From: a virus
Reading direction: 5' to 3' (one strand)
DNA length: 20,672 nucleotides
Virus record (IMG/VR): IMGVR_UViG_3300042465_001737
Location: 1 to 20,672 of that record
Shown in pieces: positions 6,221 to 17,939 of the stretch. Under the pieces are notes generated by a model. It saw only the letters and a program-made list of their open reading frames with translations, did no database searches and was not told the origin of the DNA. Made by a program: the position numbers and the translations under genes. Position 1 is the stretch's first letter. Each line of letters opens with the position of its first letter.

Positions 6221-6222
6221 TG

Positions 6223-6638
6223 TCAGCCCTTCCTCCGCGCCTTGTTTGTTTCAACATGCCGCCAACGCAAATATCGGTGCATCGTTGTCAACATCCGATC
6301 CGATTCTTGCAACAGCACTGACGGTGCGATATGGAACTCATAAGCCAAGTGGACTATTGCCCAGTGTTGGCTTTGCTCTCCAAAGGGACAATTTCGGAAT
6401 CTTCTCCAAACGTGACGCTTTCAACATTTTCCAACCATGCGTGAAAGTCGCCTAAGTCTTTTTGTTTGCGACTCAAGGCGTGCCATGACAACCAGCACAA
6501 GTCGGTGAACTTCAACTCTGTCTGAAACTTTGCAACGCTGCGGTTGTAAGTTTCCTCAAAGCCAACGAAGTCCACGGCGGCAACCGAGGCTGCCGCCGTA
6601 GAACCATCGTTATAAACAACATCCAGATTCATTTTCAT
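6223..6638 (-). CDS. Tail assembly chaperone gpGT, made by -1 frameshift
   Basis: A fusion of gpG with a downstream open segment in the -1 frame, about 138 residues in all. The zero-frame codons CCT TTG at 6387-6381 form a perfect X XXY YYZ slippery heptamer (CCCTTTG). After slippage the ribosome reads GEQSQHWAIVHLAYEFHIAP, then SVLLQESDRMLTTMHRYLRW, and stops at TGA 6225-6223. Segments of the form HLAxEFxIxPSxLL...ML are typical of the T part of lambda-type tail chaperones. The -1 frame is open only from a TGA just before the slippery site to 6223, which fits this mechanism. gpGT binds tube subunits and the tape measure during tail assembly. Confidence 0.85.
6354..6638 (-). CDS. Tail assembly chaperone gpG
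   Basis: A 94-residue acidic protein between tail tube and tape measure genes, the standard place for the lambda gpG-type chaperone. It begins MKMNLDVVYNDGS, has a helical centre (FVGFEETYNRSVAKF, TDLCWLSWHAL) and an acidic tail (FGEDSEIVPLESKANTGQ). This is the product of ribosomes that do not slip at CCCTTTG (6387-6381). It should greatly outnumber gpGT. The ATG at 6638 has GGGAG 7 bases upstream. The family is known by position and architecture more than by sequence, so the frameshift partner is the best support for this call. Confidence 0.85.
   Translation of the reverse strand: MKMNLDVVYNDGSTAAASVAAVDFVGFEETYNRSVAKFQTELKFTDLCWLSWHALSRKQKDLGDFHAWLENVESVTFGEDSEIVPLESKANTGQ
6381..6387 (-). 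promoter_or_regulatory. -1 programmed ribosomal frameshift site
   Basis: The minus strand reads CCCTTTG in register C CCT TTG. Both tRNAs can re-pair after moving one base back (CCC TTT). It lies 9 codons before the gpG stop. The -1 frame downstream encodes a chaperone T-like segment ending at 6223. There is no obvious strong pseudoknot immediately after it, but I could not fold the RNA. Confidence 0.82.
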
Positions 6639-7514: not shown

Positions 7515-8110
7515 TAGTTTGCTGCAATCTTTTTGAAGGGGCGAATGAGCATGGCAACATCGGGGTCAACTTTGCCCACTCTGATGGCGCCCATGTCTCC
7601 AAAGCCGGCAACACCGAGGGGACTATCAAGACGCTTGAAAATTCTTGACGCCTGAATCACTGTTGCCTGGGTTACTTGAATGGGCGTTGGTGTAAATCCG
7701 TAAACACCTTCAATGCGCACCGTTGCCTGCCGTTTGTAAATGGGCAGCAAATATTCACCGACCATGCGCAGCCGTGAGATGGGGAAAAAGTTGCCGCTGA
7801 CCCGTTGGTTCAATGGCTCGATCTGGTAGTCATTAGTCTCAAGGGTAATCAAGAATGTCAACTCACCGGCGTCATCTAACTTGACACTGACAATGCTAGT
7901 CAGGTCATCAACGTCCACCGTGTAATCATCGTTTGGTGTAAAGTCGCGGGTTGCCGTTCCTGCACTAAAAAAGTTCCGGTCACACTCGGCGTCAATCATC
8001 CGACTAGCCGACTCCACTGCCATCTCTAGCAATGAATCGTCAAGGGCGTCCGTGATCTTGGTTGCGGCTTTGATCTGAGTTAAAGTGCAGTAGCCGTTAG
8101 TTATTGCCAT
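7514..8110 (-). CDS. Head-tail connector, gp6-like
   Basis: A 198-residue protein of the HK97 gp6-like connector type, which forms the ring between portal and tail. The N-terminal helices read YCTLTQIKAATKITDALDDS, then LLEMAVESASRMIDAECDRN. This 'tolttrxxxl..i...d..l...i..As..id..c.R.F' pattern is characteristic. A beta-rich middle follows (FTPNDDYTVDVDDLTSI), then a VRIEGVYGF..TP element and C-terminal helices. The reading frame is open back to 8305, but that part overlaps the epimerase gene. ATG 8110 has GGAG 7 bases upstream and begins the conserved region, so I chose it. It overlaps the epimerase stop by 14 bases, which shows that the sugar cassette is spliced tightly into the virion operon. 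Confidence 0.82.
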   Translation of the reverse strand: MAITNGYCTLTQIKAATKITDALDDSLLEMAVESASRMIDAECDRNFFSAGTATRDFTPNDDYTVDVDDLTSIVSVKLDDAGELTFLITLETNDYQIEPLNQRVSGNFFPISRLRMVGEYLLPIYKRQATVRIEGVYGFTPTPIQVTQATVIQASRIFKRLDSPLGVAGFGDMGAIRVGKVDPDVAMLIRPFKKIAAN

Positions 8111-9050
8111 GTGTGGTCTCCAACCATTCAATGAGGCGGCCAAAGCCTTGGGCATAGCCAGTGTTTTCCATGTGTCCGTATCGTTCCCAGAACTTTGCAT
8201 TGCTGCAATCTCGGGATAACACGCCGCTGGGCTTGTCTGTCGTGTAAGTGTAAGCCGGATCGATGCTAACAATTTGAGCGCACAATTCAGCAACTTCACG
8301 CACACTCACCGCGCCTTGAAAACCAATGTTTGTTGGGCCAATGTTTTCAGAATCCATTGTCAAGGCTTCAATCTTTGCAAGGGCGTCATCAATCCACAGG
8401 TAAGAACGCAGCTGCTCACCGTTGCCCCAAATCTCAACGTGACCTGTCTCGCGTGCCGCCAACATCTTGGTGGCAATCGCGGTGGGGAACTTCATGCGCT
8501 CACCTGCGTGAGTCTGGCCGGTGCCATAGATAGTGTGCAAAATTCCAACTCGAACATCAATGGGCGCGTGCTGACCTAACAACGTGAGCATGAGTTTCGC
8601 CCTGCCATACATTTGATCCGCTGGGCCGTACTCCAATAAACCCTCATGCAGTTGCGGTGGTGACCCTGGCTCCATCTGCATCGTGGTCGGATACGCGCAG
8701 GCACTACTTGCCACGAAAGTGCGCGACACATCAGCATTGATGCACGCTTCCAACACGTTGCTGTCAATGCGCATGTTGACAACGTAAGGCCAAAAGTCGT
8801 GTGCGTGAAAGTAGCCAACGCCGCCGTGGTCGGCAGCCAAGTGGTAGACAACTTCAATGCCGGAAAGATTGGGTTGATATTTGTCGAGGGCGACAAGCTG
8901 AACGCGCTGTGCTTTGTTCCAGTTGCTCAGGCGCTGCGGATCTCGCGGGATGTTGCGCGCAATAGCCATGACATTGTGGCCACGGTCGGCCAAGTAACCC
9001 ACCATGCTTGACCCAATGAAGCCACCGGCGCCGGTGACTGCTATGTCCAC
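8097..9050 (-). CDS. NAD-dependent sugar epimerase, GDP-mannose 3,5-epimerase-like
   Basis: A 317-residue extended short-chain dehydrogenase. It has a Rossmann motif GAGGFIG (residues 7-13). It also has VVYHLAADHGGVGYF, ASSACAYP with the Ser/Cys of the active site, the catalytic YxxxK (MYGRAKLM), and EIWGNGEQLRSYLWIDD. These blocks line up with those of plant GDP-mannose 3,5-epimerase (LAADMGGMGF, ASSACIYP, MWGDGLQTRSFTFID). The cysteine of SSAC is one of that enzyme's acid/base residues. The likely reaction converts GDP-mannose to GDP-L-galactose or GDP-gulose, feeding the adjacent glycosyltransferases. GDP-fucose synthase or another epimerase/dehydratase is possible. The start is GTG 9050, overlapping the previous gene by 10 bases. 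Confidence 0.88.
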   Translation of the reverse strand: MDIAVTGAGGFIGSSMVGYLADRGHNVMAIARNIPRDPQRLSNWNKAQRVQLVALDKYQPNLSGIEVVYHLAADHGGVGYFHAHDFWPYVVNMRIDSNVLEACINADVSRTFVASSACAYPTTMQMEPGSPPQLHEGLLEYGPADQMYGRAKLMLTLLGQHAPIDVRVGILHTIYGTGQTHAGERMKFPTAIATKMLAARETGHVEIWGNGEQLRSYLWIDDALAKIEALTMDSENIGPTNIGFQGAVSVREVAELCAQIVSIDPAYTYTTDKPSGVLSRDCSNAKFWERYGHMENTGYAQGFGRLIEWLETTHGNN

Positions 9051-9685
9051 AAGTGTGACCTATTTGTGAACAACGCCTGATCTTGATTCAAATACAACGA
9101 ACCTTTGTTGTAAGTATCATCCATGTTTGCCAAGCCCCAAACCCAATGCAGGTGTTCAACTTTTGAGTCAAGGCAAGCGCGGAACTGACCTCGGAACTTG
9201 GCAGTTGCCACGGCCTCGGTGTCGCAATAGTTGTGCGTGTAGCCCTCATGCAATAAGGGCGCGCTGTTGTCAATGGTGCCACGTTCGGCATATTCACGGG
9301 TCACCAAGTAATGCGTGGCGTGACTACCTGCTAGCACGTCATGGTTGTGCAGGTCATTCGTCCCAACAAGGCCGTAATTCTTAGCGATCTCCAACAATGG
9401 CACATGCCAGTCATTGTGAAAATGTAGGTCGTCAGAGGCCACAAATAAGTGCTCGTGCGTGGTCTCGTCAACGGCGGTGTTGATTGCGCCAGAGTATGAC
9501 GGACTGCGCTTGTTAATGATGTAGGTGCGCTGTATCGCTTCGATGGCTTCGCGGGTAGGTGTGTCGTGTTCCTCAACAATAAAAATGGGGTCAATCAAGT
9601 TGCGCGGCGCCGTAGGCTCAAGGTCATCAATGACCCGTTTAATGTTGTGTGCTCGGCCCAGTGTCGGAATCAGCACCGCAATCAT
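9041..9685 (-). CDS. GT-A type glycosyltransferase (family 2-like)
   Basis: A 214-residue enzyme starting MIAVLIPTLGRAHNIKRVID, the classic N-terminal nucleotide-binding strand of GT-A enzymes. It carries ASDDLHF, the acidic metal/nucleotide-sugar motif, at roughly residues 82-88. A His/Asp-rich acceptor region follows (GTNDLHNHDVLAGSHATHYL), and then EHLHWVWGLA. It should transfer a sugar from a nucleotide donor to a protein or glycan; the acceptor cannot be read from the sequence. It lacks membrane segments, so it acts in the cytoplasm. ATG 9685 overlaps the preceding stop as ATGA. The frame extends 7 codons further but without need. It is short for the family, close to a catalytic domain alone. 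Confidence 0.8.
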   Translation of the reverse strand: MIAVLIPTLGRAHNIKRVIDDLEPTAPRNLIDPIFIVEEHDTPTREAIEAIQRTYIINKRSPSYSGAINTAVDETTHEHLFVASDDLHFHNDWHVPLLEIAKNYGLVGTNDLHNHDVLAGSHATHYLVTREYAERGTIDNSAPLLHEGYTHNYCDTEAVATAKFRGQFRACLDSKVEHLHWVWGLANMDDTYNKGSLYLNQDQALFTNRSHLWT

Positions 9686-10452
9686 GGCAACGCCACCTGC
9701 CACCAAGTCTGCGCCGCTGTTGACACCATCTCAGACAATCGGCCAGCATCCTGCCAACCGTCCACGCTCGTAATCCCAACTCGGTCATTGGTGATGCACT
9801 CGCACCCAGACAGAACCGCTTCAATGGTGGCGCGTGACTCAGACTCAAAACCAAGCGGCAAGTGGACAAACCACCTAGCCACCGCCAGCGAGTCCAACAC
9901 TTCATTGCGTGGCGCGTTAGTCAACATTTTCAATTTGATGTTGTTCTCACTTGCCCACATCCGCGCCGCCAATGGGCCTTTCAAATCGTGCAACCTTTGC
10001 GCCCATACCGCGTGATCTTGCTTAGTCTCAATCCGGCACTCGGTTGGATTCATTGGTGACAGCACCAACTCGACACGTTTCGGCTGCGTCCATTGGCGTT
10101 CAATCGCCTCATGTGCTGGCGTGTGCAAAATCAATACCTTCGCCGCATTGATCAACTGGCGCCGTGCCTCGTTGCGGGGTTGCTGATGGTGTAAGAACAC
10201 TGTCGGCTTCATATCCGCTAGGCGCGTCATTGCTTCATCAGGCAGCAAGTCAGTGCCAGTCACAATGATGTGGTCGGCGCTCAGCGCCCTCTCCCACTCC
10301 CATGCAGGCACAAGGTCAACATCTAACGGCGCAGCTTCCAACAATGTGGCGTCAGTCATCTCAGCGCCGCCGACATACTTACCAGGCAAGTGCGCAGGGT
10401 TAGCGCTGTCGGTGTCACGGGGTAGGTGATGCGTTACCCACGCAACGCTCAT
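9682..10452 (-). CDS. GT-B type glycosyltransferase, divergent
   Basis: A 256-residue protein, MSVAWVTHHLPRDTDSANPA at the start, with GGAEMTD, a helical centre and HHQQPRNEARRQLI. The C-terminal half has FVHLPLGFESESRATIEAVL and SGCECITND. The two glutamates spaced E-x7-E, followed by a small-residue turn, are the nucleotide-sugar phosphate motif of GT-B retaining transferases (GT4-like). The N-terminal Rossmann half is short, so the enzyme is compact and divergent. ATG 10452 overlaps the previous stop as ATGA. An upstream in-frame ATG at 10494 lies inside the previous gene and was rejected. It is the second transferase of the cassette and probably extends the same glycan. Confidence 0.72.
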   Translation of the reverse strand: MSVAWVTHHLPRDTDSANPAHLPGKYVGGAEMTDATLLEAAPLDVDLVPAWEWERALSADHIIVTGTDLLPDEAMTRLADMKPTVFLHHQQPRNEARRQLINAAKVLILHTPAHEAIERQWTQPKRVELVLSPMNPTECRIETKQDHAVWAQRLHDLKGPLAARMWASENNIKLKMLTNAPRNEVLDSLAVARWFVHLPLGFESESRATIEAVLSGCECITNDRVGITSVDGWQDAGRLSEMVSTAAQTWWQVALP

Positions 10453-11633
10453 GCTGCCAGCATTTTCAGATATGGTTTCCAATACTTTTTCCACACCCTG
10501 TCAGCGTCATATTCAAGGGCGTGTTTGCGTGCCTTGTCGCTGCGTCCCTTGCCGCGTTTGTATGCGGCCTCAAGGCCGTCAACAATGCTGGGGATGTTCG
10601 GAGTGGCAAACCATGACAGTTGTGTGCCGTCCCAGAATGGCTGATTCTCTGTCAACCAACCGTCACCGAGTAACTCAGGTGATGCACTGAAGTCATTAGC
10701 GATTGCCACGGTGCCACAGGCTTGCGCTTCCAACAGGGTCAAACCGAATCCCTCGCCCATGGTGCTGGCAAGTAGTACATCGGTGCCGTTGAATAGTGCA
10801 GCCATTGCCTCACTCGGGATACCGTTGTGCATGGCATGTTGGCTGACAAATTTGTAATTGTCGCCATCTTGCAATCCGCAAGCCTTCAACAGAAAGTCAA
10901 GTGCCAGACCGCCGTGGTTGCCGAATCGCTCGGTGTGCAGGTATAACCTAACGTCAGGCTTGTCTTGAGCAAAGATTGAGAACGCCAAAATGTTTTCAGC
11001 CCAGCTCTTGCGGTGGATACCACCGGCGCCGCTGGCTTTATTGGCGTTAATGATTGACACGACAAACAAACTGTCAGGGTCATCATGTTTGAAGTTCATC
11101 AACTCGCGGCCAGTCTGACCTTCATAGGTTGCACCTGGTGTGTACATCTTGGTGTCAATTGCCATGGGGATATAGATGCACTCCAAGCCGGCGCGCTGCA
11201 TTTGATCCAGTCCAAACTTGGTCACCGCAATCGGCGTGAAGTTTGGGCGTTGCAAGACTTCCAAAACTTTGGGAGGTAGTGGCTGATGGTCAACCATTGT
11301 CCACACACTCGTGGGCACGTCTTTCCACATTGCCTCAGGCATTGTCCACGCATCAAACAGACAGACAACGTGGGCAGGTAGGTCAGGGTTTTCGCGTTTC
11401 CATTGTGCAAAGTTTGCACGCACGGTGTCATTGGAATAAGCCTCAATGCCCATTGGAAATATGGGAATGTCATTCCACTCTGTGCGCATACCTTGCAAGC
11501 CATAATTGGAATTGACGGCAATGGCGTGGCCGTCTCGTTTCATACGCTCAACAACTTGCGCCGTTTGCGTACCGTAGCCAGTACCGCACCACGGTGCATT
11601 GCTGTGCCACAACATAGCCATTGGATTATTCAC
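10449..11633 (-). CDS. GT-B glycosyltransferase (GT4-like)
   Basis: About 394 residues from GTG 11633. The N-terminal domain begins MAMLWHSNAPWCGTGYGTQT, with the glycine-rich turn that follows strand 1 in GT-B enzymes. The linker IPMAIDTKMYTP matches the usual 'P.GvDt..F.P' hinge. The C-terminal domain has RKSWAENILAFSIF and GEGFGLTLLEAQACGT, the E-x7-E motif, at roughly residues 294-302 of this start. It is a soluble retaining transferase of standard length. Start choice: the frame runs to 11711, but those codons cross a 10-bp hairpin. GTG 11633 has GGAG 6 bases upstream, and the enzyme core begins just after it. ATG 11645 is an alternative. Confidence 0.82.
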   Translation of the reverse strand: MNNPMAMLWHSNAPWCGTGYGTQTAQVVERMKRDGHAIAVNSNYGLQGMRTEWNDIPIFPMGIEAYSNDTVRANFAQWKRENPDLPAHVVCLFDAWTMPEAMWKDVPTSVWTMVDHQPLPPKVLEVLQRPNFTPIAVTKFGLDQMQRAGLECIYIPMAIDTKMYTPGATYEGQTGRELMNFKHDDPDSLFVVSIINANKASGAGGIHRKSWAENILAFSIFAQDKPDVRLYLHTERFGNHGGLALDFLLKACGLQDGDNYKFVSQHAMHNGIPSEAMAALFNGTDVLLASTMGEGFGLTLLEAQACGTVAIANDFSASPELLGDGWLTENQPFWDGTQLSWFATPNIPSIVDGLEAAYKRGKGRSDKARKHALEYDADRVWKKYWKPYLKMLAA

Positions 11634-11676
11634 AGGGATCTCCATTCGCAGGTTGCGCAGGATTTGCAGGGGTGAA

Positions 11677-11713
11677 GTGTGGGAGGCCAGTCCTGCGCCC
11701 CGACCTCCCACAC
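11677..11713 (-). terminator. Hairpin after the capsid gene (attenuator-like)
   Basis: GTGTGGGAGG at 11677-11686 pairs perfectly with CCTCCCACAC at 11704-11713, a 10-bp GC-rich stem with a 17-base loop. It lies 23 bases after the capsid stop, ahead of the glycosyltransferase start. On the transcript it is followed by TTCACCCC, not a U-run, so it is not a standard intrinsic terminator. It may be a partial terminator or an mRNA-stabilising hairpin protecting the capsid message. Confidence 0.55.
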
Positions 11714-12939: not shown

Positions 12940-12944
12940 GTTTC

Positions 12945-12985
12945 TCCTATGTGTATTTGATTAAGTCGCAGGAATGACAAGGGCG
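12945..12985 (-). promoter_or_regulatory. Candidate weak promoter and ribosome site of the capsid gene
   Basis: On the minus strand a TTGTCA-like -35 box at about 12980-12975 is followed 19 bases later by TACACA (about 12955-12950), then the AGGAG ribosome site and the capsid ATG. The spacing is longer than ideal. It could give the capsid extra transcription in addition to read-through. This rests on box similarity only. Confidence 0.22.
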
Positions 12986-13102
12986 CGGCTCCGCTACCCA
13001 AATGGCGCTGGTCGGCTCCGACCTTGCGCACAGTGCAGTGCTGGGAATTGCACCCAGTTGCCTGACAGTTTCAATGTGTGGTCAGGGCTTTCTATTCACT
13101 GC
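12981..13102 (-). ncRNA. Structured intergenic RNA element before the capsid gene
   Basis: The 169 bases between the protease and capsid genes hold no credible gene but are packed with pairing. In transcript order: a three-way junction closed by CACTGC 13097-13102 with GCAGTG 13035-13040. It encloses one hairpin CCTGAC 13061-13066/GTCAGG 13081-13086 and a second, CTGGG 13041-13045/CCCAG 13053-13057 with a 7-base loop. Next is a hairpin at 13005-13029 (GCGC, GGTCG, GCTC loop, CGACC, GCGC). Last is a hairpin at 12981-12999. All these pairs are Watson-Crick. It may act as an mRNA leader, an RNase III processing site or a small RNA. No known family is recognised. Confidence 0.5.
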
Positions 13103-17801: not shown

Positions 17802-17932
17802 TCACGCTCCATTGCAATACCGAGAAGGACAAGACCAAGACCGGCGACAATTACGCCGGCAGGGATAAACACAAGACCGGCGCCAAGTGCAACAGCGGCA
17901 ATGCCTGCAATCTGAAACACGTTGGCGGTCAT
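17798..17932 (-). CDS. Small two-helix membrane protein
   Basis: A 44-residue protein, MTANVFQIAGIAAVALGAGL then VFIPAGVIVAGLGLVLLGIA, ending MERE. It is almost all hydrophobic, with two short Gly/Ala-rich membrane segments joined at VFIPAG, a hairpin. Start ATG 17932 lies 7 bases after the terminase stop (stop codon 17940-17942). The stop overlaps the portal ATG, so the gene fills the gap exactly. Similar short hydrophobic frames occur near packaging genes in other phages without assigned function. It might anchor the packaging complex to the membrane, or act in lysis or superinfection exclusion; none can be shown. Confidence 0.62.
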   Translation of the reverse strand: MTANVFQIAGIAAVALGAGLVFIPAGVIVAGLGLVLLGIAMERE

Positions 17933-17939
17933 TGGTCTC

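Follow-up and report, generated by a model that had tools for sequence, protein, structure and literature searches.

The gap between the prohead protease and major capsid genes of the virus record analysed here (a 20.7-kb stretch, below termed the window) almost certainly carries, as homology and covariation indicate, the tRNA-like domain (TLD) of a tmRNA that has lost its mRNA-like domain and that forms an optional module between the protease stop codon and a tandem-hairpin leader of the capsid gene. The hairpin pair is a separate capsid leader, more widely kept than the TLD and present with or without it. The preliminary description of this DNA had placed a compact structured RNA directly ahead of the capsid gene, and a conserved one was indeed found there, on the minus strand; what had been missed is that its three-way junction is a tmRNA TLD and that this junction is an optional module apart from the hairpins. 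The position of the TLD, its family and the hairpin leader appear to be undescribed in the open-access literature searched, in which one phage TLD-only tmRNA is on record, that of mycobacteriophage DS6A.

The late genes of the window, i.e., terminase, portal, prohead protease and capsid, all lie on the minus strand. The protease gene (14929-13109; PF04586, Pfam E=5e-37) is followed by a gap of 169 nt (13108-12940) and then by the gene of an HK97-type major capsid protein (12939-11737; PF05065, Pfam E=5e-51), with a Shine-Dalgarno-like AGGAG ahead of the capsid ATG (12944-12948, minus strand), seen directly in the sequence. A promoter and an intrinsic terminator were sought around this gap of the window and none was found. 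Other spacers of the operon had been described as only a few bases long, which holds for most of them, but not for gaps of 138 nt (17802-17939) and 133 nt (6221-6353). The former, between terminase and portal genes, contains an unlisted open reading frame of ~44 codons, hydrophobic by eye, and the latter, in the tail gene region, possibly belongs to a tail-chaperone frameshift product. Epimerase and glycosyltransferase genes (8097-11711) stand between the capsid gene and the next head genes; in phage phiPsal1 glycosyltransferases also directly follow the capsid gene.

Free folding of the minus strand from 13102 to 12981 yields a three-way junction and then two hairpins. The junction (13102-13035) corresponds to an acceptor stem, a stem-less D-loop, a P2-like arm and a T-arm, and the whole TLD-only tmRNA-like element, which belongs to a subgroup with a 6-bp acceptor, extends over 13031-13102 (minus strand), beginning 6 nt downstream of the protease stop codon; constrained and free folds agree. 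The acceptor strands GCAGTG (13097-13102) and CACTGC (13035-13040) pair with each other, the discriminator A is located at 13034, and the element ends with ACTG where ACCA would be expected. The D-loop-like linker AATAGAAAGC (13087-13096) has no D-stem and aligns with ATTGGTAAGC of the group B relatives. The P2-like arm (13061-13086), which replaces the anticodon arm, has the form CCTGAC-loop-GTCAGG with a 14-nt loop; 6 bp are possible, and the minimum free energy (MFE) structure shows a near-equivalent version of seven pairs with a bulge. The T-arm (13041-13057) reads CTGGG-TGCAATT-CCCAG, its loop being TTCGATT in locus L032 and in group B. Stems of 6, 5 and 6 pairs had been proposed for the junction, and the same numbers are recovered as acceptor, T-stem and an arm able to pair 6. 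Hairpin 1 of the capsid leader (13003-13030, minus) has the core GGTCG-GAGC-CGACC at 13023-13010, with a conserved loop and a covarying stem, and hairpin 2 (12981-12999, minus) has the core GCG-GAGC-CGC with the loop of hairpin 1 at a conserved spacing. Both (13023-13010 and 12999-12981) carry the loop-side motif CGGAGCCG, as had been noticed earlier. The statement that nearly the whole spacer is paired was too strong, since pairing reaches ~59% of the 122 nt and a smaller share of the 169-nt gap.

The folding energy, suggested earlier as a check, gave a marginal result: on the minus strand it was only modestly below that of shuffled sequences (z=-2.0, with 6 of 200 shuffles equally good), while the plus strand gave z=-0.2 and the junction with its 3′ flank z=-1.3. 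The comparison with relatives must therefore decide. Relatives were gathered by their capsid protein, thus independently of the RNA, which provided 48 viral loci, and more were added via an alignment of diverse capsids. The sequences are almost all metagenomic, phiPsal1 (host Pontimonas) being the sole relative with a known host; a scan of genome contigs for prophage relatives returned one distant fragment, which was left out of the analysis. In the protease-capsid gap the close relatives carry an element of the window type (group A) and the more distant ones a clearly tRNA-like sequence, for example GGGGGTG-ATTGGTAAGC-[arm]-TCGGG-TTCGACT-CCCGA-CACCTCC-ACCA. The elements are 72-75 or 80-83 nt long, lie 87-118 nt upstream of the capsid start codon and are always on the coding strand. 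Free MFE folding produced the TLD architecture (acceptor, stem-less D-loop, P2 arm, T-arm) in the window and in nearly all relatives.

The identity of the element follows from the tmRNA model of Rfam (RF00023, cut-off 47), which matched five of the homologues in the protease-capsid gap above its cut-off: L051 (phiPsal1) with 54.6 bits, L014 with 50.6, L093 with 50.4, L017 with 49.3 and L026 with 47.7. Other gap homologues remained below it (e.g., L143 with 46.2 and L111 with 41.1 bits). The matches in homologues run from the first to the last model position with ~290 positions deleted, and the mRNA-like domain, comprising the tag reading frame and pseudoknots, is absent from all homologues. 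A real tRNA gene was ruled out, since ARAGORN called no canonical tRNA (cloverleaf, D-arm, anticodon arm) in the window or in 22 relatives, and a match to the plant-virus tRNA-like RF00233 (E=0.3, lax Rfam search) proved to be a T-arm look-alike.

Covariation, also suggested earlier as a check, gave a clear answer. Over 10 relatives and 19 pairs, with P2 registers picked by a script, pairing amounted to 96.8% (70.9% when shuffled) and the covariation score reached 0.678, compared with 0.164 for shuffled alignments and at most 0.113 for slid-partner controls. The acceptor stem and the T-arm are 100% paired in each of the 31 distinct copies. Every one of the five T-arm pairs shows double changes, and in the members with a 7-bp acceptor (24 distinct) pairs 4-6 change on both sides. 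The G3:U70 pair is invariant in 24 of 24 such members, whereas the pairs around it vary in a compensatory way. This pair is the determinant for alanyl-tRNA synthetase (AlaRS) and is described as completely conserved in tmRNA (PMC3985003); since it would read as an A-C mismatch on the opposite strand, the RNA corresponds to the coding strand.

The window itself belongs to a divergent part of the family, as group A together with locus L010 has a 6-bp acceptor and lacks G3:U70. RF00023 gave no match in the window even at a lax threshold, and likewise none for group A, and thus a new covariance model, R1, was built from ten 7-bp members only, with the subgroup of the window excluded. In a search without filters R1, whose E-values are rough, found its best match in the entire window at 13103-13031 on the minus strand (29.0 bits, E=1.1e-4), the next one scoring 16.2 bits. 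The group A relatives obtained 32-38.5 bits and L010 34.6 bits, and the remaining weak matches came from tRNA genes of L256 and from a single short fragment of L216. No R1 match appeared in loci judged TLD-less or in cultured capsid relatives with short gaps (phiC31 and its type, Samora, and phages of Vibrio, Bordetella, cyanobacteria, Sinorhizobium and Oscillospiraceae), whose gaps of ~8-75 nt are too short for the element. Within the subgroup, compensatory changes in each of the three stems set L032 apart from the window, its acceptor being GGAGTG/CACTCC and the P2-like arm CCTAGC/GCTAGG (GCAGTG/CACTGC and CCTGAC/GTCAGG in the window). L032 also combines a D-loop GG with the T-loop TTCGATT, where the window combines AG with TGCAATT; this single event falls in the pair that would join the D- and T-loop, the T-loop change in the window's subgroup being U55 to G.

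The double-hairpin leader is a second conserved element and more widespread than the TLD. Of the 63 distinct leaders examined, 50 had exactly two hairpins with an identical loop, GGAGCC or, in group B, TGAGCGNYCCGCC, ~50-90 nt upstream of the start codon and with a loop-to-loop distance of 24-27 nt (one exception, 31). Covariation is seen in the stems of hairpin 1 (96.7% paired versus 61.7% shuffled); hairpin 2 is less variable, and its covariation support is weaker. A gene-blind pattern scan for tandem hairpins returned at least 131 sites, of which at least 73 lie immediately ahead of a capsid gene of this family, and among these 73 listed sites a TLD was recognisable in nine. The capsid tree comprises 72 rows, 42 of them with a TLD, a distribution that requires at least nine gains or losses; presence and absence were called with a simple descriptor and, for part of the set, with R1. 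As the leader is kept with or without the TLD and the TLD is patchy on the tree, the hairpin leader is the constant component, and the TLD is inserted optionally after the protease stop codon and ahead of hairpin 1. Tandem GGAGCC hairpins thus widely precede the genes of this capsid family in uncultured phages (L268-L382), mostly without a TLD among the matches listed. Clade C (L035-L049) has another repeated motif, ACGCCCTAACCACGGGAC twice, at the position of the hairpin leader.

The elements share with tmRNA (ssrA, RF00023) the acceptor stem, the stem-less D-loop, the P2-like arm, the T-arm and, in 7-bp members, G3:U70, but they lack the mRNA-like domain and pseudoknots, have 72-83 nt against the 374 positions of the model and are embedded in a protein operon. 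Mitochondrial and plastid tmRNAs without a coding sequence are likewise TLDs without a tag reading frame, two plastid cases being ~65 bp long, yet these are organelle genes whereas the present elements are phage leaders (PMC11915505). The closest counterpart is DS6A, whose tmRNA is reported to be little more than a TLD; whether or not it can be charged with alanine, a DS6A-like molecule strongly inhibits tmRNA, possibly via titration of SmpB (PMC4131195; PMC11915505). Both systems are phage-borne, reduced to about the TLD and devoid of a tag reading frame, but DS6A is a single reported case, whereas the present elements make up a family with a fixed place between the protease gene and the capsid gene; the subgroup of the window differs further by its 6-bp acceptor and the absence of G3:U70.

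On balance, we favour the view that the tmRNA TLD module, probably released by RNase P, both interferes with host trans-translation and separates the messages. TLDs of tmRNAs are RNase P substrates, and RNase P together with a 3′ nuclease would most likely excise the domain from the head-gene transcript, as with tmRNA precursors. Once free, the RNA would compete for SmpB with the tmRNA of the host, and charged forms would compete for AlaRS and EF-Tu as well; judged by the effect published for a TLD-only RNA, this competition would damp trans-translation during phage protein synthesis. The same cuts would part the protease message from that of the capsid, which would then begin with the two hairpins. 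Inhibition in trans is favoured by the precedent, and an accessory function agrees with the optional presence, while the fixed place before the capsid gene, which a purely trans-acting RNA would not need, fits a processing role and hints at a cis role. Since the alanine pair is gone in the window's subgroup, its members would act without alanine, e.g., by SmpB binding, or would keep only the processing role; alanine charging cannot be the point there unless another synthetase acts. The junction may be a small RNA or an RNase site, both of which the preliminary description had proposed, and stabilisation of the capsid message, its other suggestion, would suit the two hairpins more than the junction. 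A more tentative proposal is a dual-function leader, in which processing would free a tmRNA mimic that damps ribosome rescue during late expression and, at the same time, a capsid message with a double-hairpin cap; if so, anti-host action and capsid output would be tied to one transcript.

Inhibition in trans and processing are compatible, which is why the combined reading is placed ahead of processing in cis alone. The latter, which we consider rather unlikely, would make the TLD a punctuation mark, i.e., an RNase P/tRNase Z cutting site that parts the protease and capsid messages, with hairpins that protect the new 5′ end and no role in trans. The constant strand and distance from the capsid start, the protease stop codon a few nt upstream of the TLD, the tandem hairpins that begin right after its 3′ end and the fold kept by the window's subgroup despite loss of the alanine pair all agree with it, as does the fact that RNase P processes pre-tmRNA and acts on tRNA-like structures and some mRNAs (PMC11143913). 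In tRNA punctuation and RNase P cleavage of polycistronic mRNAs a tRNA-like fold in the message can similarly be cut at its 5′ end, although for the present element the cut is a prediction (PMC11143913). Many close relatives without a TLD nevertheless have the capsid leader, hence the cut is not required; moreover, cutting alone leaves the invariant G3:U70 of the 7-bp members unexplained, and stand-alone TLD-only RNAs were found elsewhere in phages.

A decaying tmRNA or tRNA gene remnant without present function would account for the patchy presence on the capsid tree, the missing G3:U70 of the subgroup that includes the window and the failure of RF00023 to detect the window's element, but is improbable given that stems of this subgroup still change in pairs (L032 versus the rest), that acceptor and T-stems are fully paired in every distinct copy and that position and length are constant. 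Genes for tmRNA are common integration sites, and a copy of host ssrA sequence that serves as an attP site or was left as an integration scar would agree with the 3′ end of group B, GGTTCGAYTCCCGACACCTCCACCA, as a scan with this end also matched many sequences read as tmRNA 3′ ends, and with the tyrosine integrase encoded by some relatives. This candidate is weak and very improbable: an integrase, where there is one, lies at a distance of 6-17 kb, the records of the window and of phiPsal1 showed none, a whole domain with both acceptor strands and compensatory changes is kept, and insertion at the gap would split the head genes. Finally, control of the capsid gene by a cobalamin (AdoCbl-II) riboswitch was suggested by a match to RF01689 at a lax Rfam threshold (minus strand, 13077-13005; 20.8 bits, with E=0.017 for 251 bases) and was rejected as practically inconceivable, because the score is far under the cut-off of 36.5, the match spans the T-arm and hairpin 1, i.e., two separate modules, and the relatives do not conserve it, keeping the tRNA-like stems instead or, in some cases, the hairpins alone.

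The family keeps one position across phages with capsids down to ~36% identical, with an alanine pair invariant in most members, and thus provides a testable case for phages targeting trans-translation. Its many natural variants, the alanine-less ones like that of the window included, could separate charging from SmpB binding.

TLD-only RNAs also stand alone in other phages. An unannotated one was found within the tRNA cluster of Streptomyces phage LuckySocke (L256:2501-2581; RF00023, 57.1 bits), and BLAST with it matched GiJojo, Alone3, pSt2308 and BRock over most of its length and Riptide weakly, which suggests more such RNAs in these phages. Uncultured phages contain further ones at L237:1116-1191 (70.9 bits), L146:732-655 on the minus strand (67.6) and L216:4021-3940 on the minus strand (51.0); that of L237 adjoins a tRNA-Tyr-like gene and that of L216 is near a manA RNA. 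The broad TLD-only pattern is biased to GGTG/TTGGT forms and no frequencies are drawn from it. A recurrent tRNA-like sequence, AAGGTGG...CCATCTT with the T-loop TTCGATT, not called by ARAGORN, was observed in L162, L163, L169, L175-L177, L209, L225, L238, L239, L243, L250 and L253.
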